Assembly: GCF_005239225.2 (NCBI RefSeq)
Contig: NC_133294.1
Location: 4,650,001 to 4,714,000 of the forward strand
Origin: Populus alba
Lineage: Eukaryota > Streptophyta > Magnoliopsida > Malpighiales > Salicaceae
Length of the DNA stretch: 64,000 nucleotides
Direction of reading: 5' to 3'
Of this stretch, positions 18,730 through 61,907 are shown in pieces. The position numbers were made by a program, and so were the translations under genes. The stretch's first letter is position 1. Each line of letters begins with the position of its first letter. Below the pieces are notes generated by a model that saw only the letters and a list, made by a program, of their open reading frames with translations, was not told the origin of the DNA and made no database searches.

Positions 18730-19420
18730 TGGGTAGTGCGTTTTATAACCCTACCTCCTTTTGAGTGCGCCTTTGAGCCCTCACCTCCTTTGGAGTGCGC
18801 CTTTGAGCCCTCACTTCCATTTTGAGTGCGCCTTTAAGCCCTCATCCTTTCGGTAGTGCGTTTTCTAACCTTACCTCCCTTTGAGTGCGCCTTTGAGCCC
18901 TCACCGCCTTTTGAGTGCGCCTTTGAGCCCTCACCTCCATTTTGAGTGCGCCTTTGAGCCCTCATCCTTTGGTAGTGCGTTTTCTAACCCTACCTCCGTT
19001 TGAGTGTGCCTTTGAGCCCTCACCTCCGTTTGAGTGCGCCTTTGAGCCCTCACCTCCATTTTGAGTGCGCCTTTGAGCCCTCATCCCTTTGGTAGTGCGT
19101 TTTCTAACCCTACCTCCGTTTGAGTGCGCCTTTGAGCCCTCGCCTTCATTTTGAGCGCGCCTTTGAGCCCTCATCCCTTTGGTAGTGCGTTTTCTAACCC
19201 TACCTCCGTTTGAGTGCGCCATTGAGCCCTCACCTCCGTTTGAGTGGGCCTTTGAGCCCTCACCTCCATTTTGAGTGCGCCTTTGAGCCCTCATCCCTTG
19301 GGTAGTGCGTTTTCTAACCCTACCTCCCTTTGAGTGCGCCTTTGAGCCCTCAACTCCTTTGGTAGTGCGTTTTTCTAACCCTACCTCTTTTCGAGTGTGC
19401 CTTTAAGCCCTCGCCATCCA
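18730..19420 (+). repeat. 30-bp satellite array with 120-bp higher-order units
   Basis: The basic unit is about 30 bases, with consensus core TTGAGTGCGCCTTTGAGCCC. A variant, ggtagtgcgttttctaaccc, recurs at 18732, 18852, 18971, 19091, 19181, 19301 and 19361. The spacing is therefore about 120, then 90, 120 and 60, all multiples of 30. Because 30 is divisible by three, frames stay open by chance; the minus-strand ORF at 18962-19294 is a decapeptide repeat from this array and is not a gene. Confidence 0.88.
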
Positions 19421-19623
19421 ATTCTTCATATTTTTTTCCATCTGGGTAGGTCACCCATTACAATGAGACCACTCTTTACTTTTATGTTTAGGCAGGTCGC
19501 CCATGAAAATAGACCAATGTCAGCGTAAGTGTGTGGGCTGGTCGCCCCTGAAAATAGACCACCTTAAGTATGTGTTGGGCAGCTCGCCCGTGAAAATATA
19601 CCATCTTTCTTCAAAAACAAAGG

Positions 19624-20535
19624 GTTTGAACCACACAGGATTTTGGTTCTGGTTAGAGGGGATTGCCGAAAGCAATCTCAGTCTATCCCAACCACACACA
19701 GGATTTTGGTTCTGGTTAGAGGGGATTGCCGAAAGGAATCTCAGTCTATCCCAACCACACAGGATTTTGGTTCTGGTTAGAGGGGATTGCCGAAAGCAAT
19801 CTCAGTCTATCCCAACCACACACAGGATTTTGGTTCTGGTTAGAGGGGATTGCCGAAAGGAATCTCAGTCTATCCCAACCACACAAAGGATTTTGGTTCT
19901 GGTTAGAGGGGATTGCCGAAAGCAATCTCAGTCTATCCCAACCACACACAGGATTTTGGTTCTGGTTAGAGAGGATTGCCAAAAGGAATCTCAGTCTATC
20001 CCAACCACAACAAGATTTTTGGTTCTGGTTAGAGGGGATTGCCGAAAGCAATCTCAGTCTATCCCAACCACAACAAGATTTTGGTTCTGGTTAGAGGGGA
20101 TTGCCGAAAGCAATCTCAGTCTATCCCAACCACACAAAGGATTTTGGTTCTGGTTAGAGGGGATTGCCGAAAGGAATCTCAGTCTATCCCAACCACACAC
20201 AGGATTTTGGTTCTAGTTAGAGGGGATTGCCGAAAGGAATCTCAGTCTATCCCAACCACATAGAGGATTTTGGTTCTGGTTAGAGGGGATTGCTGAAAGG
20301 AATCTCAGTCTATCCCAACCACACAGGATTTTGGTTTTGGTTAGAGGGGATTGCCGAAAGGAATCTCAGTCTATCCCAACCACACAGGATTTTGATTATG
20401 GTTAGAGGGGATTGGCGAAAGGAATCTCAGTCTATCCTAACCACACACACATAGTATTGAAGTTTCGGGTTAAAGGGGATTGGCGAAAGGAATCTCAATT
20501 TAGCCCAACCACACACAGGACTTTGGGTCCGGTTG
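19624..20535 (+). repeat. 61-64-bp tandem array (about 14 units)
   Basis: Each unit contains ggattttggttctggttaga, then ggggattgccgaaag, then aatctcagtctatcccaacc. Spacing between units is 61-64 bases. In the first seven units the base after aaag alternates C, G, C, G, C, G, C, so the array grew partly as dimers of about 125 bases. The C form makes a perfect GATTGC/GCAATC inverted repeat around CGAAA. Units become more diverged toward 20400-20535. The long ORFs in several frames are by-products of the repeat. Confidence 0.88.
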
Positions 20536-36735: not shown

Positions 36736-37680
36736 ATGGAGCACGAACAATCTTCTAAGGAAGGCAAGAACAATGCTTTTGATCCTTTTTTTTCTCTCTA
36801 CCATTCTAATCATCCAGGATTGGTGCTTGTCTCCAAGCTTCTCAATGGCGATAATTATTCTACCTGGTGCAGATCTATGACCATCTCCTTGAATGCTAAA
36901 AATAGGTTGGGATTTATAGATGGTACAATACAGATACCGTTTGTCAAGAGCCAACAAGACAATTATGCTTCATGAAAGAGATGCAATGCCATGATTCTAT
37001 CATGGACTCTCAATTCAATTACACCAGAACTTGTAGACAGTGCTTATATTTTCAACTACAACCCTAGAAGTTTAGGAAGACCTTCGAGATTGTTTTTATC
37101 AAAGCACCCCTCGTATCTTTAAGATTGAGAGGGATATTGCTTGTACTTCTCAAGCAGGATTGTGGGATGAATTGGGTTTCTATAACAGCACTGTTTACTC
37201 CTATAGGGTAGATCACAAGAGACAATAGCTTTTGCAATTCCTCATGGGACTAAGTGACTTTTACAAAGCAATTAGAGGAGAGGACATATCCTATTGCTAA
37301 ATCCTCTATCTAATGTTTGCCAGGCATATTCCTCTATTATTCAAGAAGAGAAGCAACACAGCTTAAATGATACACATGAGACAGAAAAAACTACAGCCAT
37401 AGCAGTTCAACGAGATGAACTTACAGCTCTAGCAGTTCAATCAAGACAAGGTGCTTCCTCTTGCTCCAACTCTTTTAAACGTAAGCCACTGCATTGCTTA
37501 TACTATGATAATGATCATCATGTACGAGATACATGTTGGAAACTGCATGGCTATCCACCAAGCCATCCAAAACATAAAGCCAACCGTTTCAACCGTCAAG
37601 GCAGTCGTCCTCCTTATAACAAGTCTGCCCATCCTTCAGCCAATTATGTCAAGGAAGGTCCCACAATGCAAGAGATGTAG
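36736..37680 (+). pseudogene. Copia gag remnant
   Basis: The gag N terminus reads in frame from 36736 (MEHEQSS) through NGDNYSTWCRSM. At about 36974 a TGA stands where related gag proteins have Trp before KRCNAMI. Further pieces (WDELGFYN in another frame, then CLYYDNDHHVRDTCWKLHGYPP) mark the distal gag and its degenerate zinc knuckle. It cannot make a full protein. Confidence 0.7.
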
Positions 37681-38114
37681 TCGGTCATGAATGGATTCTC
37701 TGATTTACAGTTTCAATAGATATTGTCCATTATGAATAAAAACGGGACAGATCAATCCTCTCAACCTTAGGCCAATGCTACTGTTACTTCTCCAGGTTTG
37801 TTGCAAGCACCATTCAGACTACCTCGATTGATTCTTGACAGTGGTACAATTAATCACATCACTTCTTCTTTGAATTTGCTTGTCAATAGTCGTTAGAATT
37901 CTATTTTACCACAGGTTATTACGCCAAGTGGAGAACATGCTCCAATTACATCTACCGAGACTTTGCCTTTGATTTCTGTTATTTCTCTAAAAAATATGCT
38001 TGGTGTGCCATCCTTTAAGTTGGATTTGATGTTTATAAGTCGAGTTACAAGAGGTCTCAATTGTTTAGTAACTTTTTTTTTTTTTTCCTATTGGTGTATT
38101 TTACAGGACTTGGT

Positions 38115-38454
38115 GATAAAGACGACGATTGGTTTGGGTACATGCTGCGAGTTATCTTGGTTACGTTCATTATTAAAAGATTTATAGATATTGCATCCGA
38201 AACTAGCATTGCTACATTGTGACAACAAAGCAGCTTTACATATAACGGCTAATCCAGTTTTCCATGAGAGAACTAGACATATAAAAATGAATTGTCATTT
38301 TATTCGGGATAAAATACAAGATGGATCAATCATAACCCAATTTGTTACTTTAGCAGATCAACTTGCGGATACATTCACTAAGCCATTAGGAAAGGAGATT
38401 TTCTCTATCATGATTCACAAGTTAGGAGTTCTCGACATTCACTCTTCAACTTGA
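38115..38454 (+). pseudogene. Copia RNase H remnant
   Basis: CELSWLRSLL, then a stop, then [25 protein letters not shown] and [11 protein letters not shown] give the conserved C terminus of Copia polyproteins. It is joined directly to pre-integrase sequence by a large internal deletion. Confidence 0.75.
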
Positions 38455-38461
38455 GGGGAAA

Positions 38462-38667: not shown

Positions 38668-39071
38668 GTTTTTCAATGTAAACACAATCTGTACAGTCTT
38701 GTGTCGGTAATGTAAACATAATGCATCGCGTGGAAAACATTCTCATATCTTAAAAGTCGGGTAAAGCAGTTAAAATGCTTATTTGAACTTTAAACACAAT
38801 TAACAACGTCGGGCCCTCCATGCTTGAAGAAGATGCTCTTTGCTCGTAATGGATTGGACACTTCTGAAGGAATCTTTCCACAGCTTTTCTAGATTAAATA
38901 CACGAGTTGTGTACTGCTGGTGCAGTGTTACAAAACATAATTGTATTCCATGCTTGAGCTTCAAAATCTGAATCGATCTCTTTAACACAACCTAAGTCCT
39001 TGACAAAGCCCCCCCGTGTTCAATAAATATTTCTCTTCTTACTTCTCACTAAGCTTGGAGCTCCACAATCT

Positions 39072-42000
39072 ATGGATCTAATCTGTTTCTTCATTGCTCA
39101 TTTATTCATATCAGGTAACTGGTAGATATTGAATAATGCTTCTATATGTTTTCTGTTCTAATTCTAGAATCTAAATTAAACCATATTATATATCCGCAAG
39201 CAGGTGTTGTTTCAACAACTTTTTCAGTAACAAACAAGTGCAACTACACGATATGGCCAGGGTTTCTGGCAAATGAAGATGATCCTCCTGCATCTATCTC
39301 TAGCTTCTCCCTTCAAAAGGGACAGTCAAAAACCATATCACCACCAGTTTCCTGGGGTTATCCTTTTTGGGGCCATACATATTGCACTGAAGAATCCACA
39401 GGAAATTTCTCCTGCATCACAGGTGATTGTGGTTCTGGCAAACTAGAATGTTCAGGAAACGGCACGGCTACTTCTGCCATATTGCCAGAGTTCAAGCTTG
39501 TTGGTTCTGGTGAGCTTTATTTTATTTCCTTTTTAATGTTAATCTTGTTGTGCCTTTAGCCAGCCTTTCCTGGTTCTGGTGTAGGATGCGTGGCGGATTC
39601 GAACGTAGCATATTTTTCAGAGCTCAAGGTTAATAGTTCCGGCGGGGAGATCGATGCTTGCAAGTGTGTGTGCAAAGCATTTGGATCACCACACTATTGT
39701 GCATCAGTCAATTACCAAATTATTTTCTGCGCAGGTAAATTTACCATTTCTCAATCTTGTAGCATTTTTTTCGAGTTTGGTGCTCTATTTTAAATCATTT
39801 TGATATCTAGGGATAGTTTGATTAGATGAAATCATGAAGAGTTAAGAAAGATTGCAGAAAATGGAAGTTGGTTCTATCCTAAAAAAGAAAAGAAAAGAAA
39901 AAAAGGATGCTTCATATGGTGACTTTGGAAAGAATTTGAAAAATAATACCGTTGAACCAAGGGCAAAGCCAGGAATTTTTTCTGATCTAGGCTATTTATA
40001 TATATATATATAAAGATTAATTATTAACTTATAAATATAAATTTTTAAAGTTAACATTAAAATTTTAATTCAAATATATTATCCAAAATATTAAAAAATA
40101 AATTTAAAAATACATAAAATTGAAGTAAAAAATAAAAAGAAACTCACTATTGAAATTACATCCTTTGATGTTTTATAAAATATAATTCATCTACAATCGA
40201 ATCTGAATCGTTATTATAACAACCCCTTAACTGGGATAAAATAACAATCTCATGTCAACTGGAAAACAAAGTAATTAAAATTTTTCCATCTCTCAATTCT
40301 TCCTTCCTTCACTTTATTCTTCTTTAGATTAGTGTTTTATAAGTTAGACTTTGTAAGTTTACAAGGTTATGCTCTCATTTTTCTATTTCTTTTTTTCTTG
40401 GATTTTTTTATGTTTTTTTCCTTACTTTTTTAATCTTGCCTTTTTTAAAAAAATCTTTTTCTATTCTGCTTCTGCCCAGTTAGCAACATATAAAAGGAAG
40501 GAAGAATTGATTTTTTTTATTTTTTAATGATAAATAATCATTTTACCCTTAATGAGTTTGTTTTGCTTTTATTTGACATTTTTTTTTGTTAACATTACCA
40601 AGCTTCGTTCATCCTAAAATTTTAACCAGATTTCAATCGATATATTTTAAGATTTCTTGTAAAATTTCAGCTCAATCTGATAGTCAAATTGAAAATTATA
40701 TCCAATAACATAAAACCAGTAAAATTGTGATTTTTCATCAAATTTCTAAATTTCTTCAAAAATTCTGAAATTTTAACCCAAGCTAAAGTATTATATTACA
40801 AGGCTCTATGCAAATTTTCAGAATTTTTTGATAATTCAATTAAAAATTATGAATTTGTTTTATATAAAACTAGTCAAAATATATTAATAAAATCCTTACC
40901 TGGATTAGAGCCCACCCTAGCCCTCAGCTTGTGTCCGCCCTTGCGTGGAACTCTAGCATACACACTAATTTTTCTTATTCTATATATTTTAATTTTCTTT
41001 TGTTGTTTGATTTACACCCTCTTTTTGGCTTTTGATTTTAAGTGGTGCCTAGCTCTATCAAGTGTTTTGATTAAGAAATCCTCAATGATTATTCACTATT
41101 AAAACTTCATGATTACAATTAATATAATTCTTTAAATCTCGCAAATGACATTCCAATTTAAAGTTTATAAAACCCAAATCATACGTGGAGTGGAGTTTCA
41201 ATCAGGAAGCTTTATATTTTTTTAATAATATTACTTTTAATTCAATAATTAATAATATTGAACTTACTATAAAAAAATTTATTTGGAAGGCGTTATTTCA
41301 ATCAAGTGCATACCAAATAATAGTAAAAAAATGAATGTTATGTATTATATTTTTAATGCCTATTAAATCTAACTAAACATCATTGTTTTTTATTGATAAA
41401 AATGTAAATTATGAAATTTGTAAATGAGAGATCACTTATAAAAATTTAAACTATTATTACTAATTACAAAAATTATAAGAAATTTATACCACACTTGAAA
41501 TCCATAATATTTATTAATGCAGTAAGAAGTCAAGTTATTTTTTATTTTTTATAAGCAAATAAATATATTTTAAGAATTAGATGAGCAAACCAGATGAAAT
41601 GCAAGTCATGAATTATATATATATATAATTTATTTTTATTTTTATATAGTCTCTGGTGTACTAACCAATATATATGCCCAAATAAATATATTTTTAAGAA
41701 TTAGATGAGAAAACCAAATGAAATGCAAGTCATTAATTATATTTTAATAAAATAAAATAAATATAATTTATTTTATTTTTATATAGTCTCTGGTGCATTA
41801 ACCAATATACATGCCAAAGTTGAGGGGAGCATATTTGTTTTGATAAAGCCATAAAGATAAAGCCTAATGAAGGTAAAAATAACCAACCCAAGAGGTCGGA
41901 CAAAACAGAGAAGATAAAGAAAATGGTTACAGGTGAAATAATCAAAATAACATAAAATAAAGATCACTAAACTGCAAATTCAAGCAACCAATCTCTAATC

Positions 42001-43661
42001 CCTTCCATTGTCGACTCCTGATCTTCCAACAAAAATGTCTTCTGCAAAGAAACGTATATATGACAAACGCAGTCCTGTTGAAGTATGGTTTCGTCCTTTC
42101 ATCATTGTCTTTTTGATTGATTCATCCATTTGCAGCAAAAACTACTACTCCAAGAAGACGTTTGTCATCGGAGTCCACCAAAACCTCAACAACAGTTTCA
42201 GTAAATGCTACTGCAAATGGCCCTGATTCGACGTCCGAGTCCAGCGCAACCAGCCCCACATCTTCAGTGAAAGCTTCTGCAAAAGGCTCCAATTCATCGA
42301 GCAGTGCAACAGTAATTACAACTAACGAAACGGTGAAAACGTTAAGCCCCATGACAGTCCCTCCAAGCCCTTCGCCAGATGAAAAAACACCAAGCCCTAT
42401 GCCTTTCCCTCCAAGCCCTTCGCCAGAAGAGAAAACACCAAGCCCTATGCCACTCCCTCCAACCCCTTTGCCAGATGAGAAAACCCCAAGCCGTTTGCCA
42501 AAAACAAGGCCTACTTCAAGAAGACGCTTGGCACCGATTATAGCAGGAGTAATAGGTGGTGCTCTTCTCATCATTTTCCTCATAGTGACTCTTATTTTGA
42601 GGGCGAGGTGGTGGGAGGAATATGAGAAAAATGAGGATTTGGAAGCTGATCATGATATAAGGCAAGTTCCAGGAACGCCTGTGAGGTTTTCATACGAAGA
42701 TCTTCGTGTTGCAACTCATGATTTCAGTGATACACTTGGAAAAGGAGGTTCCGGATCTGTGTTCAAAGGAGTACTGCCAGATGGGACTCATGTCGCTGTG
42801 AAGAAGTTGGACAAATTAGGCCAAGATATGAGTTCATTTCTATTAGAAGTTGAGGCAATTGGAAGCATCAACCATTTTAATTTGGTAAGATTGATAGGAT
42901 TTTGTGCAGAGAAATCATCTGGGCTTTTGGTTTTCGAGTATATGAACAAAGGATCCCTGGATAAATGGATTTTCAAGAATGACCAAGGATCTTGCCTCGA
43001 TTGGCAGACCCGAAATAAGGTTGCACTTGGCATAGCAAAAGGGCTGGCTTATCTTCATGAAGACTGCCAGAAGAAAATAATACATTTCGATATAAAACCG
43101 CTGAACATTCTCTTGGATGCAAATTTCAATGCCAAGATTTGTGATTTTGGGTTGTCTGAACTAGTTGATAGAGATACGAGCCAAGTTCAAACCCGAACCA
43201 GAGGAACCTGTGGATATATTGCTCCAGAATGTTGGAAAACACCACCAGGTCGCATCACAGTAAAAGTTGACGTATACAGTTTCGGAATTGTTCTCCTGGA
43301 AATAGTTTGTGCACGCAGAAATTTTGATCACACACAACCAGAATCTGAAAATCATTTGCTTAGGATGTTACAGAAGAAAGCTGAACAGGATAGGCTCATA
43401 GACATTGTGGAGAATTTGGATGATCAGTCCATGCAGGGTGATAGAGAGGAAATAATCAGGATGATAAAGATTGCTGCTTGGTGTTTGCAAGATGACCCAG
43501 AAAGAAGGCCTTTCATGTCAGCAGTTGTGAAGGTGTTGGAGGGTGTAATGGAGGTAGAATCAAACCTCGTTTATAAGTTTCATCATGCATTGATAAGTCC
43601 TGCTGTTAATCGCCATGCATCTCCACAGCCACAACCATCTGTTCTTTCTTGTCCCAGATGA
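39072..43661 (+). CDS. TLP-RLK gene A: thaumatin-domain receptor-like kinase with reduced ectodomain
   Basis: The model joins 39072-39114, 39204-39509, 39585-39734 and 42136-43661, all GT-AG and all phase 1, giving 674 residues. Order: short signal peptide (1-15), partial thaumatin domain to about 166 (FWGHTYC, GDCGSGKLEC), Pro-rich stalk with three SPMP-PPSPSPDEKT-type repeats, membrane helix about 299-321, and a Ser/Thr kinase. The kinase has P-loop GKGGSGSV about 368, VAVKK Lys about 389, HFDIKPLN with Asp about 485, and DFG about 503. HFD makes it non-RD. It is predicted at the plasma membrane as an immune-type receptor; the ligand is unknown. Compared with gene B, the thaumatin domain has lost its middle and several Cys, and 39510-39584 is best read as an intron made from former coding sequence. 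If that intron is not spliced, a stop after about 131 residues leaves a pseudogene. The Copia element inserted about 400 bases upstream may affect expression. Confidence 0.75.
39510..39584 (+). other. Candidate new intron inside the thaumatin domain of gene A
   Basis: GTGAGC at the 5' end and ggtgtag at the 3' end enclose 75 T-rich bases. Splicing them joins LVGSG to CVADSNV in frame. Unspliced, the frame reaches a TAG at about 39557. The same stretch in gene B (about 60030-60135) is coding and still recognisably similar (gttaatcttgttgtgcct versus gttaatcttcttggtggc). Confidence 0.6.
39958..40943. mobile_element. hAT-like non-autonomous element in intron 3 of gene A
   Basis: The left end CAAGGGCAAAGCCAGG and the reverse complement of the right end, CAAGGGCGGACACAAG, form terminal inverted repeats of the hAT style. 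Eight-base flanks CGTTGAAC (39950-39957) and CGTGGAAC (40944-40951) match at 7 of 8 positions, as expected for hAT target duplications. The 986-base interior is AT-rich and non-coding. Confidence 0.65.
41557..41815 (+). repeat. ~123-bp tandem duplication in intron 3 of gene A
   Basis: The unit begins aaataaatatattttaagaa and ends with tatagtctctggtgyattaa and accaatatayatgcc. It occurs twice, head to tail, starting at about 41557 and 41680. Confidence 0.75.
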
Positions 43662-48191: not shown

Positions 48192-50225
48192 TCAGCTGGT
48201 TGCACTTTCTTCTTGAAGAAGTGGGCTAACAATGTTTTCATATGTTAGTTTATCAGGAACAACTCCCTTAAGCACCATGTAGTCATGCAATTCAATTACC
48301 TCTTCAGCACTGCAATTCTTGTCGATGTTGGTAAAAAGAGTTCTATATGTTATACTATCGGGAAGCACACCCCATAGGACCATCATCGTCATCAGTTCCT
48401 TTGCTTCTTGAACACAACCAAACTTACACAAAAACTTGATCAACGTGTTGTAAGTGGCACTGCTTGCAAAAATTCCAGCATTTTGCATTAATGTTGGTAA
48501 CTTAAATGCCTTGTCAAACTTCCCACAGTTGATATATCCATTTATCAGGGTGTTATAAGTTATGGTGTCAACAAAACCCATCCTCTGTAATACATCTACC
48601 AAAGATCTAGCAACATCCACCAATCCATCCTTGCATAAACCATTTATAATAGAATTGTATATTAACAAGTTGGGTTTTTCCTCACCCTTCACCATTGTGT
48701 CATAGACCTGAACTGCACTTTCAATGTTCCCTTCCTTGCAGTGCCCATCGATCAAAGTACCAAATGTAACAACATCAGGAACCAAGCCACGTAAATACAT
48801 CCTGGCCAACAGTTGCCTGGCTGCAGCAAATTTGTTGCTTTTGCATAAGAAATTGATAAGAATATTGTGTGAAAATGCATCTTCAATGAGGTTATTTTCT
48901 AGAGATTGGTTAAGGAATTTAAGAGCCTCGGTTATATATCCATTTCTGCAAAGACCCCTTGTGAGGATTGAACAAGTGAATTTATCTAGGGGTATCTGCT
49001 TATCTGACATGTCAGTAAATACCAAAGACGCTCCATCCACGTCTCCTTCCATGTAAAGCCAATGCATAATTGAATTATACACCACAGAATTCGGCAGCAA
49101 TCCCCTTTCCACCATTTCATCACATAACCTAAGTGCCTCCTCCAAACACCCTGCTCGTGAATACCCTTCAATCATGGTTGCATAGGTCCTCACATTAGGC
49201 TCAATATCTATTTTCATCATTTCATTCCTAAGTTCTTCTGCCACAGTTATCCCCCCTGTTTTGCAAAACCCATCGATGAGACTGTTATAAGTTACAGAAT
49301 TGGGCTTACTAGATCCTCCAGACATTATTTCCATCTTCCTAACTAGCTTCAAGGCAAGGTCCATGTCACCCATCTTGCAAGCTCCATCGACCATCATGTT
49401 AAAAGTAACAACATTAGGCCAAATACCACTCTTCAGAATTCGATAGAACACAGACAGTGCTTCTTGTAATTTACAATCTTTACAAAGAGCATGCACAACC
49501 AAGTTGAAAGTATTTACATTCTCCATATACCCATAAGAAACCATTTCCCTATACACCATCCAAAACCTATGGATCTCATTCACCCTAATGAGATGGCTCA
49601 AAAAGTTATTCCAGGCATGAATTGTAACCCAGCAACCCTCTATTTGCAACTTCTTGATCACTTCATAAGCACCCACAGTAGCCCCTATTTGAGTACAAGC
49701 ACGAACCAATGCATCAAAAACAGCAGGACTTGATTCACAGATTCCATAACAATTATTCAATGCTTCTAGGACCTCCAGAGGAGATAAGCCATTTACAGTC
49801 ATCAAATTCCCCATAAGAGACAAGGCATCGTCATATCTCCTCGAATTAACCAGAACATGAATTACACAGCATGAAATCTCCAGCGAGTGCAAAACACTCT
49901 TCTCTCCAACCCAATGTAAAACTCCAAAAACTAACTGAGGCGTGTTCTGAAACTCACAAACAACACGACTCACTAATGCATTTGTTAGACTCGCCAAATT
50001 TTTCTCCAAGAAATTCCATCTCCTTTGTTTGAGATTAACACAAATAGCTCTAAAAACAACATCCTCAGAAATCGGGTTTAAAATGCTCTTACCCAAATGA
50101 AAACTACGTTCCAAGAAACACCATCTTTTAATTAGAAAAGAGCTTAATAACATAGAAAGCAGGCCACTCAATCCATGAAAACAATCGAGTAACTGCAACA
50201 CAAAACCAAAACATAGAAAACCCAT
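48192..50225 (-). CDS. P-class pentatricopeptide repeat protein (677 aa)
   Basis: This is a single uninterrupted exon. Residues about 166-670 contain about 14 consecutive 35-residue PPR motifs of the P class, for example NVVTFNMMVDGACKMGDMDL and DVVTFGTLIDGHCKEGNIES. Most end in G-x-x-P/D, and there are no E, DYW or SMR tails. P-class PPR proteins bind specific organellar RNAs through residues 5 and 35 of each repeat and stabilise or help splice or translate them; nearly all act in mitochondria or plastids. The hydrophobic, basic N terminus (1-50) could be a targeting peptide. The first in-frame ATG was chosen; the next Met is at residue 25. The gene is intact, lies opposite to the receptor-kinase genes, and is unlikely to be functionally linked to them. 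Which Arabidopsis gene is its orthologue was not determined. Confidence 0.93.
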   Translation of the reverse strand: MGFLCFGFVLQLLDCFHGLSGLLSMLLSSFLIKRWCFLERSFHLGKSILNPISEDVVFRAICVNLKQRRWNFLEKNLASLTNALVSRVVCEFQNTPQLVFGVLHWVGEKSVLHSLEISCCVIHVLVNSRRYDDALSLMGNLMTVNGLSPLEVLEALNNCYGICESSPAVFDALVRACTQIGATVGAYEVIKKLQIEGCWVTIHAWNNFLSHLIRVNEIHRFWMVYREMVSYGYMENVNTFNLVVHALCKDCKLQEALSVFYRILKSGIWPNVVTFNMMVDGACKMGDMDLALKLVRKMEIMSGGSSKPNSVTYNSLIDGFCKTGGITVAEELRNEMMKIDIEPNVRTYATMIEGYSRAGCLEEALRLCDEMVERGLLPNSVVYNSIMHWLYMEGDVDGASLVFTDMSDKQIPLDKFTCSILTRGLCRNGYITEALKFLNQSLENNLIEDAFSHNILINFLCKSNKFAAARQLLARMYLRGLVPDVVTFGTLIDGHCKEGNIESAVQVYDTMVKGEEKPNLLIYNSIINGLCKDGLVDVARSLVDVLQRMGFVDTITYNTLINGYINCGKFDKAFKLPTLMQNAGIFASSATYNTLIKFLCKFGCVQEAKELMTMMVLWGVLPDSITYRTLFTNIDKNCSAEEVIELHDYMVLKGVVPDKLTYENIVSPLLQEESATS

Positions 50226-50381
50226 ATCAGCTAATCATAAAAAGACTCAGTCTTTATCTACTTTAGATTCATTGTTATTAACAAACTTTAATAAAACAGA
50301 AGCTCGGAAAACATACTAAAATGATATCAAATTAAATCAACAAATGAACAAATATCTAAATACAACACAGCATTTAACAAG

Positions 50382-52966: not shown

Positions 52967-53960
52967 ATGACAACACAAATCGACTCAGCAACTACCTTCT
53001 CTTCTTCCAGCCTTCCTCACCAAGAAGTTTCTCTTTATAACAATAAATACCACTGCACAAACAACCTCTCAAACTCACATCCACAAACTACCTTTCCTGG
53101 AAACTTCAGTTTGAAAACCTTATTCATTGGATATGATCTTATTGGATACATCGATGGATCCACTCCCTGCCCTCCCAATCCTGTTATTGTAGACAATGTC
53201 ACAATAACAAATCCTCTCATAAGTTTTGGATTCGTCAGGATAAGCTTCTGCTTAATGCCTTGATAGGATCTCTTTCTCCCACGATCATTCCTTTCATTGC
53301 TTGTGCAAATACTGCTCAAGAAGCTTGGAAATATCTTGGCCAACACGTATGCTAACCTTCACGTGGTCGTATCAAGCAAATTAAAAACCAGCTCAAACAT
53401 CCATCCAAAGGATCTCAATCTATTACTGAATTTCTTCACTCTGTCAAAGCCACTGCTGTATGAACTGGCTATATTAGCACCACCATGGATCCCGAAGACC
53501 TCACTGATACAATCTTGGATGGTCTTGATGATGACTATAAAGAGCTTGTTGTGCAGTTCAAGCACGTGATACTTCTATTTCATTTGATGAACTGCATGAA
53601 AAGCTTCTTTCTTTTGAAGCCATGTCATCCTCCCATGCAACCCCCTTCCCATTACTGCCAATCTTACACAAAAGAGTTCTCCTACATGGCGTAATACTCG
53701 TTCATCCTTCAACTTTCGCCCTCCTTCTCCATCATCTGCTAATTCTCATTTCTGGCGTTCTTCTCCTCCCAGTACTTTCAGGCCTACATTCAATCGTCCT
53801 AATATATCGACCTGCTCGTCCTCCTCAGCGCCCATATCAAGGCTTCTGCCAAATATGTGGCATTCAGGGTCATACAGCCAAACGCTGCCCATCATTTCAG
53901 CTAGTTCCAACAAATGCCACAAATACTGAATCTTCAGCCTCCCAACACTCTTCTTCTTCT
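52967..53960 (+). pseudogene. Copia gag, degraded
   Basis: The ATG at 52967 opens a gag-like N terminus (NNKYHCTNNL and DLIGYIDGS). It breaks within about 100 codons, and pieces continue in other frames (MDPEDLTDTILDGLDDDYKE from 53485). A zinc knuckle, CQICGIQGHTAKRC, is intact in the frame starting at about 53622. At least three frame changes separate these parts. Confidence 0.78.
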
Positions 53961-55285
53961 TGGCAGCCACGAGTTAACTTTGTTGCCAACACACTCAATC
54001 AACCCTCTCCTACATGGTTACTTGACAGTGGTGCCTCTCATCATGTAACAGCAGATTTAGAAAATTTATCCCTGCACTCTCCTTACAGTGGATCAGATGA
54101 TGTGATGATAGGCGATGGAACCAATCTTCCAATTACACACACCGGTTCTACACATCTATCCTCTCCTACATCATCTTTTACATTGTCTAATGTTCTATGT
54201 GTACCAACTATGCAAAGAAACTTGATTTTTGTTTATCAGTTTTGTGTCACTAATAATGTTTCTGTCGAATTCTTACCTTCTCTGTTCTTTGTGAAGGATC
54301 TTCAAACGGGGGCAATTCTCTTTCAAGGCAGTGTTAAGGATGGAGTGTATGAATGGCCGACTTCAAAACCACAATCTCCCCCACTTCTCGCCTTCTCTAC
54401 TACCAAAACCACATCTGCAATCTGGCATAGTCGCTTAGGACATCCAGCATTTCCTATTTTAAAACATGTTCTCACTCATTCTCATTTAGCATCATCTGCA
54501 TCTATCACTTCTGATTTCTCCTGTAATGCCTGCCTTTGCAATAAAAGTCATAAGTTGCCATTCTCTACTTTCCACTCTTGTCTCTACACATCCATTGCAA
54601 ATTGTTTTCTCCGATGTTTGGACTTCTCCAATTGTGTCTTCTGCAGGTTTTAAATACTATGTCATATTTGTTGATCATTTCACCAAATATGTCTGTTTTA
54701 TCCCCTTAAACGAAAATCTGATGTTCATGATGTTTTTTACACGATATAAAGCCATTGTTGAGAATTATTTCAAGCACAGTATAGTCACTCTCTACACTGA
54801 TAATGGGGGGAGTTTCTTAGCCTTCGAAATTTTCTCTCTACAGCAGGGATCACTCATATGACCACACCACCTCATACCCCAGAATTGAATGGCTATTCTG
54901 AACGCAGGCACCGTCACATTGTTGAGACTGGACTCACGCTACTCTCACATGCATCCCTTCCATTAACATTCTGGAATCATGCATTTAGTGCTGCTGTGTA
55001 TCTTATTAATAGGATGCCTACCACATCTCTCAATCTCTCTAGTCCATTTGAATTAATTTTCAACACAGCACCCAACTATTCCAAGTTAAAAAGTTTCGGT
55101 TGCTTATGCTATCCTTGGATTCGTCCATATTCGTCCCACAAATTAGAACCTAAATCCAAACCCTGTGTTTTTCTTGGATACTCATTATCACAGCATGCAT
55201 ATCTTTGTTTTGAACCATCTACTTCAAAAACTTTTATTTCTCGTCATGTCCAGTTTGTTGAATCTGTTTTTCCTTATACATGACA
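53961..55285 (+). pseudogene. Copia protease and integrase region, frame-broken
   Basis: WLLDSGASHHVT marks the aspartic protease. WHSRLGHPA and CNACLCNKSHKLPF mark the integrase zinc domain. VIFVDHFTKYVCF, YTDNGGSF and ELNGYSERRHRHIVE mark the catalytic core. Frame changes fall near 54640 and 54850, and the TDNGGEF-type motif reads GGSF. Confidence 0.82.
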
Positions 55286-57156
55286 GCACACTTCCACGCC
55301 CCAATTCAACCACTGCAGTGTCATGGTTACCCCCAGTTATTAAAGTCTCAGTTCCTCTTCCATCTCAGCTGTCTTCTTACACTCCAGTCATCACTGCTCC
55401 AGAATTGCCTCCTGCTGCTGCTACTTCAATCCCACCCATATCTGCTGCATCTCCAATACCACCCTCCTCTGTTACACACCCAGCCTCCCCACCACCTCCC
55501 TGTCACTCCATGACTACCCGTGCCAAAAATAATATCCTCAAACCAATTCAGAAACTAAACCTTCATACACAAGTCATTTCATCACCTACTTCAGAACCCA
55601 CCACTGTTGCCCAGGCACTTAAAAATTCCAACTGGAGAACTGCTATGTCAGAAGAATACAATGCTCTTGTTCGCAATGGAACATGGGAACTTGTTTCTCC
55701 ATCTCTTGCTACAAACCTTGTAGGCTGCAAATGGATTTTTCGCATCAAACGCCATCCTGATGGCTCAATTGACAGATTCAAGGCCCGGCTTGTAGCCAAG
55801 GGCTTTCATCAACGACCAGGTGTGGATTATCTAGAGACATTCAGTCCAGTAATTAAGCCAACCACTATTCGTCTTGTGCTCAGTGTTGCCGTTGCCAATG
55901 GTTGGTCTCTTCGACAATTAGACATTAACAATGCATTTCTCCAAGGTACCTTGACAGAAACAGTCTACATGCTCAGCCGCCAGGCTTCATTGACTCCGAT
56001 CATCCCACTCATGTGTGTAAACTTCATAAGGCTATCTACGGACTCAAACAAGCTCCAAGGGTTGGTATCCAAGAGTTACGTAAATTTCTCATGGAATCTG
56101 TTTTCAGAAATTCACCACTCTGATACTTCTCTCTTCATTCTGCAAAACTGGCACAAAGTTGTTATATCTTTTAGTATATGTAGATGATATTATCCTAACG
56201 GGTAATAATTCAGATCTTGTGTCACAGTTTGTTGATTGTTTAGCACACAGGTTCTCCCTCAAAGATCTTGGCAACCTTTCCTACTTCCTTGGTGTAGAAG
56301 TCATTCCTCAAAGTCAAGGCATTCTTCTGTCTCAACGTCGCTATATCAAGGAGCTACTTGCTAAAACACATATGGACATGTCTAAAACCTGTTCTTACTC
56401 CACTGCCCACAGACTCCTCTTCACTTACATTTATCAGCAGGAACAATTCTATCAGATCCCACAGAGTACAGAACAGTTGTAGGCAGTCTTCAATACTTGT
56501 CTCTCACACGTCCAGATATTTCTTTTGCTGTCAAACCGAATGTCTCAGTTCATGCACGCCCCAACTGATGAGCACTGGAATTGTGTTAAACGAATTTTGC
56601 GTTATCTAAGTGGCTCATCCCATGAAGGACTTCTTCTTAAACGAAATTCTCCACTCGCCCTGCATGCCTTCTCAGACTCTCTTCAAGCCTTCTCGGATGC
56701 TGACTGGGCAGGTAACAAAGATGACTACACTTCCACTAGTGCCACCTTGTCTATCTTGGCAACAATCTCATTTCTTGGAGCTCCAAGAAACAACAAACTG
56801 TAGCCAGATCCTCTACTGAAGCAGAATACAGATCAGTTGCTGCTACTGCAGCTGAATTGTGCTGGATTCGTTCACTGCTCTCAGAACTTTGCATTACCTT
56901 GCTTCACACTCCTGTCATCTACTGTGATAATATAGGAGCCACACAACTAAGCTCCAATCCGGTATTTCATTCAAGGATGAAGCATGTAGCCATTGACTAT
57001 CACTTCATACGTGATCAAGTGCAAACTGGTGCTCTACGTGTGGCTCACGTCTCCTCAGCAGATCAGCTTGCTGATCTGCTCACAAAACCTCTTCCTCGTT
57101 CTCGCTTTCAAGATTTACGGAGCAAGATTGGCCTCTCTAGTCGTGGCCTATCTTGA
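55286..57156 (+). pseudogene. Copia reverse transcriptase and RNase H, frame-broken
   Basis: [42 protein letters not shown] and, in another frame, [14 protein letters not shown] give the reverse transcriptase with its catalytic YVDD. VYCDNIGATQL-type sequence and ADQLADLLTKPLPR close the polyprotein. Frameshifts lie near 55975, 56170 and 56400-56520. The last piece (56857-57156) is open to the terminal stop. Confidence 0.85.
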
Positions 57157-59584: not shown

Positions 59585-61907
59585 ATGTCTCGGATAATAT
59601 TACTTAAGCATTTATCTTCTTTCTTGGTTGCTCATTTGTTCATATCAGGTATGGTCAAGATTCTGTGACAGTCGTTCTTTTTTTTATCTCAAATTAACTA
59701 ATCAAGTTGTTGTTAACTTGCTATGCTATGTTCTTACTAAGCAGGAGTTGTTTCAACAACATTTACAATAACGAACAGTTGTAACTACAAAGTGTGGCCA
59801 GGAGTTTACTCATCGCGTACCCCAGCTTTCTCCACAACTGGTTTTTCCCTTGACAAGAATGAGTCAAGGATCATAAAAGCACCAGCTTCTTGGACTGGTT
59901 CGTTCTGGGGCCGCACGTATTGCACCGAAGACTCCTCAGGAAATTTCTCCTGCATTACTGGCGACTGTGGCTCCGGCAAACTAGAATGTTCAGGCAACCG
60001 TGGTGCTTCTCCTGTAACGGAGTTAGAGATTACGCTTGGCGGTTTCAATGGCCTTGACTTTTTTGATGTTAATCTTCTTGGTGGCTTCAACCTGCCTTTG
60101 CTTGTTGTGCCTATTGGTCAGAACTGTTCAAGCATAGGATGCATTGACGATTTTAACGAATCATGTCCTGCAGAGCTTGAGGTTACCAATGGTACAGAAG
60201 AGAAGAGTGTGGGATGCAGGAGCGCTTGCGACGCTCTTAAGTTGCCCATATATTGTTGTAATGGCAGAATGTCAAGTTTTAAATGCAAGCCTTCATTGTA
60301 TTCTCGATTTTTCAAGAATTCATGTCCACAGGGTTTCACTTATTATTTTGAAGATAATGGTAACATTACCTACACCTGTCCATCCACCGATTACCAAATT
60401 ACATTCTGCCCAGGTAAATCTGTCTTTTTTTCATTTTTGTATATTTATGAACATTTTAATGTTTAAGGGTAGTTTTGTTCATCTGAAAGTCAGGGAAAGT
60501 CCGCATATTTTCATTCTATTACTGTCCATTCTTATAAATTCATCCACCGCAGTGCATATATAATCCATCATCTTCTTGGTTTCCATAATGAATATACTTC
60601 TTAAATCATTTTTTTTAGCAGAGAAGTCAATAAATACCACTTCATATGGATCCAGTTCAATAAATACTACTTCATATAGGCCCAATTCAAGAAACACAAC
60701 AGTTACAGCAAACAACTCTCGGCCATCATCAGGGGAGATAACACCAAGTTCTATGCCTGAAATAAGGCCAAATGCTACTTCAAGAAGACATTGGAAGCCA
60801 ATTATAGCAGGAGTTGTAGGTGGCGTTCTTGCTATCATTTCTTTTGTAGTTATTATTGTTTGGAGGGTCAGGTGGAGCAAGTCCGAAGATACTGAGGAGG
60901 ATGTAGAAGATGATCATATACAGCAAGTTCCAGGAATGCCTGTGAGGTTTTCGTATAAAGATCTTTGTGATGCGACCGATGATTTCAAGGAAACACTTGG
61001 AAGAGGAGGCTTTGGTTCTGTGTTCAAAGGAGTACTCGCAGATGGAACAGGAATTGCGGTGAAGCGTCTGGATAATTTAGGCCAAGGAAAGAGGGAGTTT
61101 TTAGCGGAAGTTGAGACAATTGGAAGCGTGCACCATTTTAACTTGGTGAGGTTGATAGGATTTTGTGCAGAAAAATCATGCAGGCTTCTAGTATACGAGT
61201 ATATGAGAAATGGATCATTGGATAATTGGATTTTTAAGAAAAGCCAAAGATCTTCCCTTGATTGGAAGACACGAAAGAAGATTATACTTGACATTGCGAA
61301 AGGGCTGGCTTATCTTCATGAAGAATGCCGACAGACCATAATCCACCTTGATATAAAACCGCAGAACATACTCTTAGATCCAAAGTTCAACGCCAAAATC
61401 TCTGACTTCGGATTATCTAAGCTGATTGATAGGGAGATGAGCAAAGTCCAACTTTCAATGAGAGGAACCCCTGGATATCTTGCTCCAGAATGGCACAAAG
61501 CATTAGGTCACGTTACAATAAAAGTTGACGTGTACAGCTTCGGAATTGTTCTACTGGAAGTAGTTTGTGCACGCAGAAACGTTGATCACTCGCAACCAGA
61601 ATCTGCCTTCCATTTGCTTAGAATGTTGCAGAATAAAGCTGAATACATTTTGGGATATTTAGATGAATATATGCAGAGTGATAAAGAGGAAATAATCAGG
61701 ATGCTAAAAGTTGCTGCTTGGTGTTTGCAAGATGACCCAGAAAGAAGGCCTCTCATGTCAACAGTTGAAAAGGTGTTGGAGGGTGTAATGGAGGTGGGTT
61801 CAAACCTGGTGTATAAGTTTTCACATGCACTGGCACCACCTCCTGCTGTTGGTGCCCATATTTCTTCAGCACCGCCCCCTGCTTCTGTTCTTTCTAATCC
61901 TAGATGA
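59585..61907 (+). CDS. TLP-RLK gene B: thaumatin-domain receptor-like kinase (673 aa)
   Basis: Exons 59585-59648, 59745-60413 and 60619-61907 join in frame. Residues 1-22 are a signal peptide. Residues 23-243 are a thaumatin-like (PR-5) domain with all 16 Cys, plus WGRTYC, GDCGSGKLEC and a CIDDFNESCP segment. A Ser/Thr-rich stalk with a repeated SINTTSY, a membrane helix (about 305-326) and a Ser/Thr kinase follow. The kinase has GRGGFGSV about 372, AVKR Lys about 393, HLDIKPQN with Asp about 489, DFG about 507 and APE about 533. HLD makes it non-RD. The architecture is that of PR5K receptors, but the kinase resembles S-domain SD2 kinases (HHFNLVRLIGFCAE) more than LRK10L. It probably perceives an apoplastic ligand and signals from the plasma membrane; ligand and partners are unknown. 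In the acidic cleft LGGFNLP replaces the common VDGFNLP, losing one Asp. The gene looks fully functional. Confidence 0.9.

Follow-up and report, generated by a model that had tools for sequence, protein, structure and literature searches.

The window analysed here, a stretch of 64,000 nucleotides of Populus alba DNA (NC_133294.1, positions 4,650,001 to 4,714,000), carries two adjacent sister receptor kinase genes on the plus strand, referred to below as gene A and gene B. Gene A encodes a PR5-like (thaumatin) receptor kinase on contig C11. Its first exon (39072..39114) encodes the signal peptide MDLICFFIAHLFIS and matches the start of the annotated protein P0001 exactly, and exon 2 (39204..39509) encodes the N-terminal half of the thaumatin domain, with positions 1-87 of the 209 in the Pfam Thaumatin profile aligned to P0001 residues 25-114. 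A 75-nt segment with an in-frame TAG at 39557-39559, the putative exon-derived intron 2 (39510..39584), separates this from exon 3 (39585..39734), a remnant of the C-terminal thaumatin part that lacks 41 residues in frame by comparison with gene B. Intron 3 (39735..42135) is 2401 nt long, and exon 4 (42136..43661) encodes a stalk, a transmembrane helix recognised by eye, and the kinase. Gene B occupies 59585..61907 (protein P0026), and its counterpart of the 75-nt segment lies at 60048-60137. The corresponding intron of gene B is only about 0.2 kb, against 2.4 kb here. A 48-base tandem repeat of 3.3 copies lies in the region of gene A that encodes the stalk (42344-42500), and the stalk of P0003, the P. 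x canadensis relative, differs in length.

Elsewhere in the window there are two minisatellite-like arrays at 18732-20534 (periods 90-210 and 63/314 nt), which themselves produce long repetitive open frames. Open frames like a copia-type retroelement polyprotein, in pieces, were recognised by eye at 53541-57156, with more copia-type fragments ahead of gene A, around 37276-38460. On the minus strand at 48192-50234 is a 680-residue open frame that by eye resembles a PPR-repeat protein.

The initial annotation proposed that the 75-nt segment of gene A once coded for part of the thaumatin domain and became an intron. The GTGAGC and TAG borders it named are indeed present at 39510-39584, as CTG/GTGAGC on the 5' side and GGTGTAG/GATGC on the 3' side (slashes mark junctions here and below), and the T-richness it described is evident in a T content of 49%, against 26-29% in gene A exons 2-4. 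TTAAT words occur at distances of 42 and 48 nt from the 3' end of the segment, which is a usual spacing for a branch point. The four-exon model of 675 codons is accurate as well: its 2025 nt give 674 amino acids and one stop, and the spliced product agrees letter for letter with P0001, the NCBI entry "PR5-like receptor kinase [Populus alba]". Two statements of the initial annotation need correction. Removal of the segment does not restore phase; since 75 divides by three, excision takes out the TAG and leaves the phase as it was. The phase evidence that does carry information is found within the segment, in the gaps relative to gene B described below. The claim that there is no other lesion is right for stops and for the net frame; it overlooks the 41 residues mentioned above, which are gone from the thaumatin domain near the end of exon 3.

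An open spliced frame is by itself weak evidence for an intron at this position, because 50 GT-AG pairs (60-300 nt, in exons 2-3), 39510-39584 included, would drop the TAG and leave the frame open. The donor at 39510 matches the U1 consensus at 7 of 9 positions, and one other spanning donor, at 39423, matches at 8 of 9. What singles out the pair 39510/39584 is that the identical junction occurs in other annotated proteins and in a Logan contig. A whole-genome DNA search with 39060-39760 recovered the query locus at 100% and matched a further 12 places (69-75% identity over 180 to 524 bases, or 85-90% over 59 to 64 bases), with no second close copy among them. Short similarities to the signal peptide and start of exon 2 were seen upstream of the window on C11 (L046:542-619 and L047:592-666) and were dismissed as fragments.

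Comparison with orthologues in related species, suggested at the outset as a check, showed that annotated proteins from three genera of the Salicaceae have this junction. It is exact in four of the six closest gene A relatives, namely P0001, P0003 (P. x canadensis), P0004 (Dovyalis caffra) and P0005 (Salix suchowensis), and lies elsewhere in P0006 (Salix dunnii, with an extra TV) and P0002 (P. alba x berolinensis, LTFPGSGV), two models that also lack most of the kinase. In a scan of 50 proteins the segment was absent from the gene A group (P0001-P0006 and P0038), from P0018, and from the first domain of P0009; five proteins gave no pattern length but by eye code for the stretch (P0039 in part), and P0047 and P0048 start too late. 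P0018 is a gene-B-like protein of Salix suchowensis that lacks the segment at another junction, EFTLD/GCIGD, and P0009 is a fused Dovyalis model outside the gene A clade whose first domain again has a different junction. The gap in these two could come from annotation or from a deletion, or the stretch could have been excluded a second time, independently, so that some models may drop it for reasons beyond a shared intron.

In the first tree, which left out P0018, P0009 and a Lotus row, a clade with 99/96 support unites the gene A orthologues, Dovyalis outermost, and all 12 rows outside that clade code for the segment. Dovyalis belongs to the Salicaceae tribe Flacourtieae and Populus to the tribe Saliceae. 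Given the position of Dovyalis in the clade and its tribal placement, the excluded state probably predates the split of Populus, Salix and Dovyalis, a dating that outside Populus draws on annotated proteins only; in the protein models of the Salix and Dovyalis orthologues the segment could be deleted rather than spliced. Another Dovyalis protein, P0030, codes for the segment and shares the CAS..YQIIFC end with gene A. Its position was not resolved in the first tree, and a tree of 81 columns placed it in an open group (91/91) that also contains gene A and two of the chromosome C4 genes described below, C4b and C4c. We do not claim P0030 as the sister of gene A, although a clade of P0030 and the gene A orthologues was not rejected (p-AU 0.47).

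The sister genes indicate what the segment used to be. Gene B codes through the stretch, as had been asserted (GLDFFDVNLLGGFNLPLLVVPIGQNCSSI), and so do three receptor kinases on another chromosome, C4 (C4a, L010/L039; C4b, L017/L040; C4c, L019/L041), so that all four sister kinases have 90 nt at this place, coding without a break. Local alignments of the 75-nt segment with the coding DNA of each of the four score 46-48, while dinucleotide shuffles (1000 per gene) scored 30-35 at best and never reached the real score. For the other TLP genes L011, L013 and L015, shuffles equalled the score in 90, 7 and 754 of 1000 cases. Thirteen loci were given for scoring, six of which (L016, L018, L020, L024, L025 and L029) did not match the search pattern and were not scored. 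The segment therefore resembles the receptor kinase family in particular, and its continuing alignment to the coding DNA of four sister kinases shows that it descends from an exon. At the start of the thaumatin exon in C4c (C4:1257500-1265500) there is a TAA immediately before TTFTIWPG, so the N-terminus of that gene may be damaged.

The segment has decayed in the way an intron does. Relative to gene B it has gaps of +8, -1 and -22, all frame-breaking, and the remaining 2025 nt of gene A stay open. As a rough figure, three gaps falling at random would all lie within one named 90-nt stretch with p of about 8e-5. Exon 3, outside the segment, differs from gene B by one 3-base gap and by gaps of 1 and 122 bases, whose sum of 123 accounts for the 41 missing residues.

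Contigs from other sources add a second length of the segment and support at the transcript level. In P0047 and P0048 (JGI contigs of 1115 and 1132 nt) both borders are kept and the segment is 98 nt long, as counted from translation codons with the segment read in the frame of exon 3. Since 98 leaves a remainder of two on division by three, an unspliced message of this type would shift the frame between exons 2 and 3, and the flanks are still conserved. The donor there would read GTGGGC, by eye weaker than the GTGAGC of the window. P0038, a Logan contig of 1172 nt with four member sequences, lacks both intron 1 and the segment and contains the start of intron 3; its junctions are MDLICFFIAHLFISG/VVSTTF for exons 1-2 and EFKLVGS/GCVADSN for exons 2-3, and its last 86 residues are common to P0047. 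With this combination P0038 is probably transcript-derived, and best interpreted as a partly spliced or early-terminated message. In support, two other Logan entries, P0011 and P0016, are receptor kinases of full length in which every exon is joined to the next (longest contigs 2169 and 2453 nt). P0042, another Logan entry, begins MTGVVSTTF, which speaks against a uniform transcript picture of the Logan set; P0042 may be genomic. The JGI entries P0041, P0043 and P0044 open with MLLLAG, a sequence situated within intron 1 of the C4 genes just before exon 2, as expected of genomic DNA, and P0047 and P0048, from the same source, are for that reason probably genomic. A protein search with P0047 gave three matches, all found previously, and no additional species. 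As P0038, P0047 and P0048 all extend into the counterpart of intron 3, a secreted thaumatin-only product made by early termination is conceivable.

These contigs bear on the possibility that the segment is alternatively spliced, in the manner of an exitron or of regulated intron retention, so that a substantial fraction of messages would keep it and splicing would switch gene A between the receptor and a secreted fragment with a hydrophobic tail. With the segment retained, translation stays open for 132 residues and ends at the TAG (39557-39559) with GELYFISFLMLILLCL, and the start of intron 3 in P0038 means that partly spliced or early-terminated messages may exist. Exitrons are a known class in plants, according to PMC4484396; the same paper describes them as free of premature stops, whereas a TAG interrupts the segment here and its length in two other contigs shifts the frame, and the contigs that keep it, P0047 and P0048, are probably genomic. 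We consider regulated use of the segment distinctly unlikely.

Selection on the kinase exon, put forward with the intron proposal as a further check, came out in favour of a preserved gene. Three-point distance estimates for four trios gave the gene A branch an omega of 0.41-0.51 in the kinase, with dN at least equal to dS in 20, 1, 19 and 1 of 1000 bootstraps and a bootstrap upper bound reaching 0.97 in two of the four trios. For the retained thaumatin codons omega was 0.34-0.53 (dN at least equal to dS in 1, 28, 1 and 4 of 1000), with an upper bound of 1.03 in one of the four. The corresponding kinase values were 0.22 on both the gene B and the C4a branches, and the thaumatin part gave 0.60 on the gene B branch (69/1000 bootstraps) and 0.45 on that of C4a (26/1000). 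These estimates indicate that gene A is constrained, its kinase less tightly than those of its sisters.

Such constraint is difficult to reconcile with gene A being a pseudogene in which 39510 is not a splice site and the stop goes unspliced. The in-frame TAG and the internal frameshifts are what such a gene would show, and Petre et al. (2011, PMC3048497) list six probable poplar pseudogenes among stop-interrupted thaumatin-like models. Against this, the rest of gene A is open through 675 codons with omega below 1, full-length relatives with the identical junction exist in Populus, Salix and Dovyalis, and P0038 lacks the segment, all of which makes a pseudogene very improbable. An origin as inserted DNA carrying its own splice sites, from a transposable element or a tandem duplication, is scarcely credible: the 11-base direct repeat TGGTTCTGGTG lies close to both borders (39502-39512 and 39571-39581), and tandem duplication is a known origin of new introns (PMC4974935), but the body of the segment aligns with the coding DNA of four sisters, replacing their 90 nt rather than adding to them, and P0047 and P0048 read LLRSSDQNC in place of the 3' copy, which is apparently absent there, so that the repeat looks local and later.

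The reading that best accounts for these observations, with a probability of roughly 0.88, is that gene A still works as a PR5-like receptor kinase, and that 39510-39584, formerly 30 thaumatin codons, is now a spliceosomal intron. Conversion of coding sequence into an intron is well supported by the residual coding homology, the frame-breaking gaps inside the segment, the 98-nt version, P0038, and the shared junction in three genera, and the exon-derived intron is very probably spliced.

A plausible course of events would begin with splice sites drawn from the coding sequence itself. The acceptor context AG/GATG would already have been there, and the donor GT would have been present in, or have arisen from, coding sequence. 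At the homologous places an acceptor-like AG/GATG is found in five of the seven scored genes (gene B, C4b, C4c, L011 and L013, but not C4a or L015), and a donor GT in one of the seven (C4a, GTGGCC); the acceptor was therefore probably latent and the donor latent at best in some ancestors. Because the ancestral 90 nt are a multiple of three, skipping the segment would keep the frame, and splicing could have removed it, without disturbing the frame, ahead of the first stop or frameshift. Frameshifts, the stop and changes in length would then have built up in the segment, and messages left unspliced, which would contain a stop followed by another intron, would make poor mRNAs. Rescue of a damaged receptor, as the initial annotation had it, would thus be one of two routes, and harmless skipping before any lesion could be the other. 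The order of events, near-complete splicing and the decay of unspliced mRNA are what we infer from the present-day sequences.

If the intron reading is correct, gene A offers a clean example of one route to new introns. Well-polarised exon-to-intron cases in constrained genes allow stepwise tests of the intronisation model, and here the neighbouring gene B still carries the coding form, as do three genes on another chromosome, two lengths of the decayed form are known, and related genes occur in Salix and Dovyalis too. Stop-bearing poplar TLP-kinase models may also be wrongly dismissed as pseudogenes. A more speculative and rather unlikely extension is that in-frame deletion and intronisation together produced a Salicaceae receptor with a minimal "half-thaumatin", selected as a distinct small-TLP-kinase, in which intron retention would serve as a switch to a short secreted fragment.

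The predicted product can be compared with several known systems. P0001 scores above the Pfam cut-offs for both PF00314 (75.7 bits; cut-off 27.4) and PF00069 (166.5 bits; cut-off 31.7), and so falls among the TLP-kinases, although its Thaumatin match runs only up to the exon 2-3 junction. A sequence search of solved structures with P0001 returned kinase chains only among the best 60 of 2517 matches, and predicted structures of P0001 and P0026 were set aside as too poor (mean pLDDT 39.1 and 35.8; 33-row alignments). Like the TLP-kinases, or PR5K proteins (Petre et al., 2011, PMC3048497; AtPR5K2, PMC6822995), gene A combines a signal peptide, a thaumatin-related ectodomain, a transmembrane helix and a kinase; it differs in that its ectodomain has been reduced, through the intronised segment and the in-frame loss of 41 residues, to 151 residues with 11 Cys, compared with 222 residues and 16 Cys in gene B. 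This brings it near the size of small TLPs, which have about 150 residues and 10 conserved Cys, and near the small-TLP-kinase of Sorghum in joining an ectodomain of such length to a kinase (both from PMC3048497). Gene A, however, has 11 Cys, which places it outside the small TLPs, and it arose in a dicot TLP-kinase lineage.

Gene A resembles exitrons (Marquez et al., 2015, PMC4484396) in that the intron is enclosed on both sides by what was once a single coding exon, but exitrons, as that paper defines them, contain no premature stop and keep their coding capacity; the gene A segment has a TAG in frame, has lost that capacity, and falls outside the definition. A closer likeness is to intronisation as modelled by Catania and Lynch (2008, PMC2586383) and followed up in Paramecium (PMC9612004). 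The model predicts short segments of 3n length, located toward the 5' end, that bear stops and contain latent splice sites, and the gene A segment is short, 5', ancestrally 3n and stop-bearing, with coding flanks and with splice sites that may derive from coding sequence. It differs in being a single-gene case in a tree receptor family, and in having a non-3n length of 98 nt in two other contigs. Among the titles and abstract openings listed by searches of open-licence PMC papers, none dealt with an intronised thaumatin receptor kinase. Gene A is very probably a new instance of a known process, one already implicit in the NCBI gene model.
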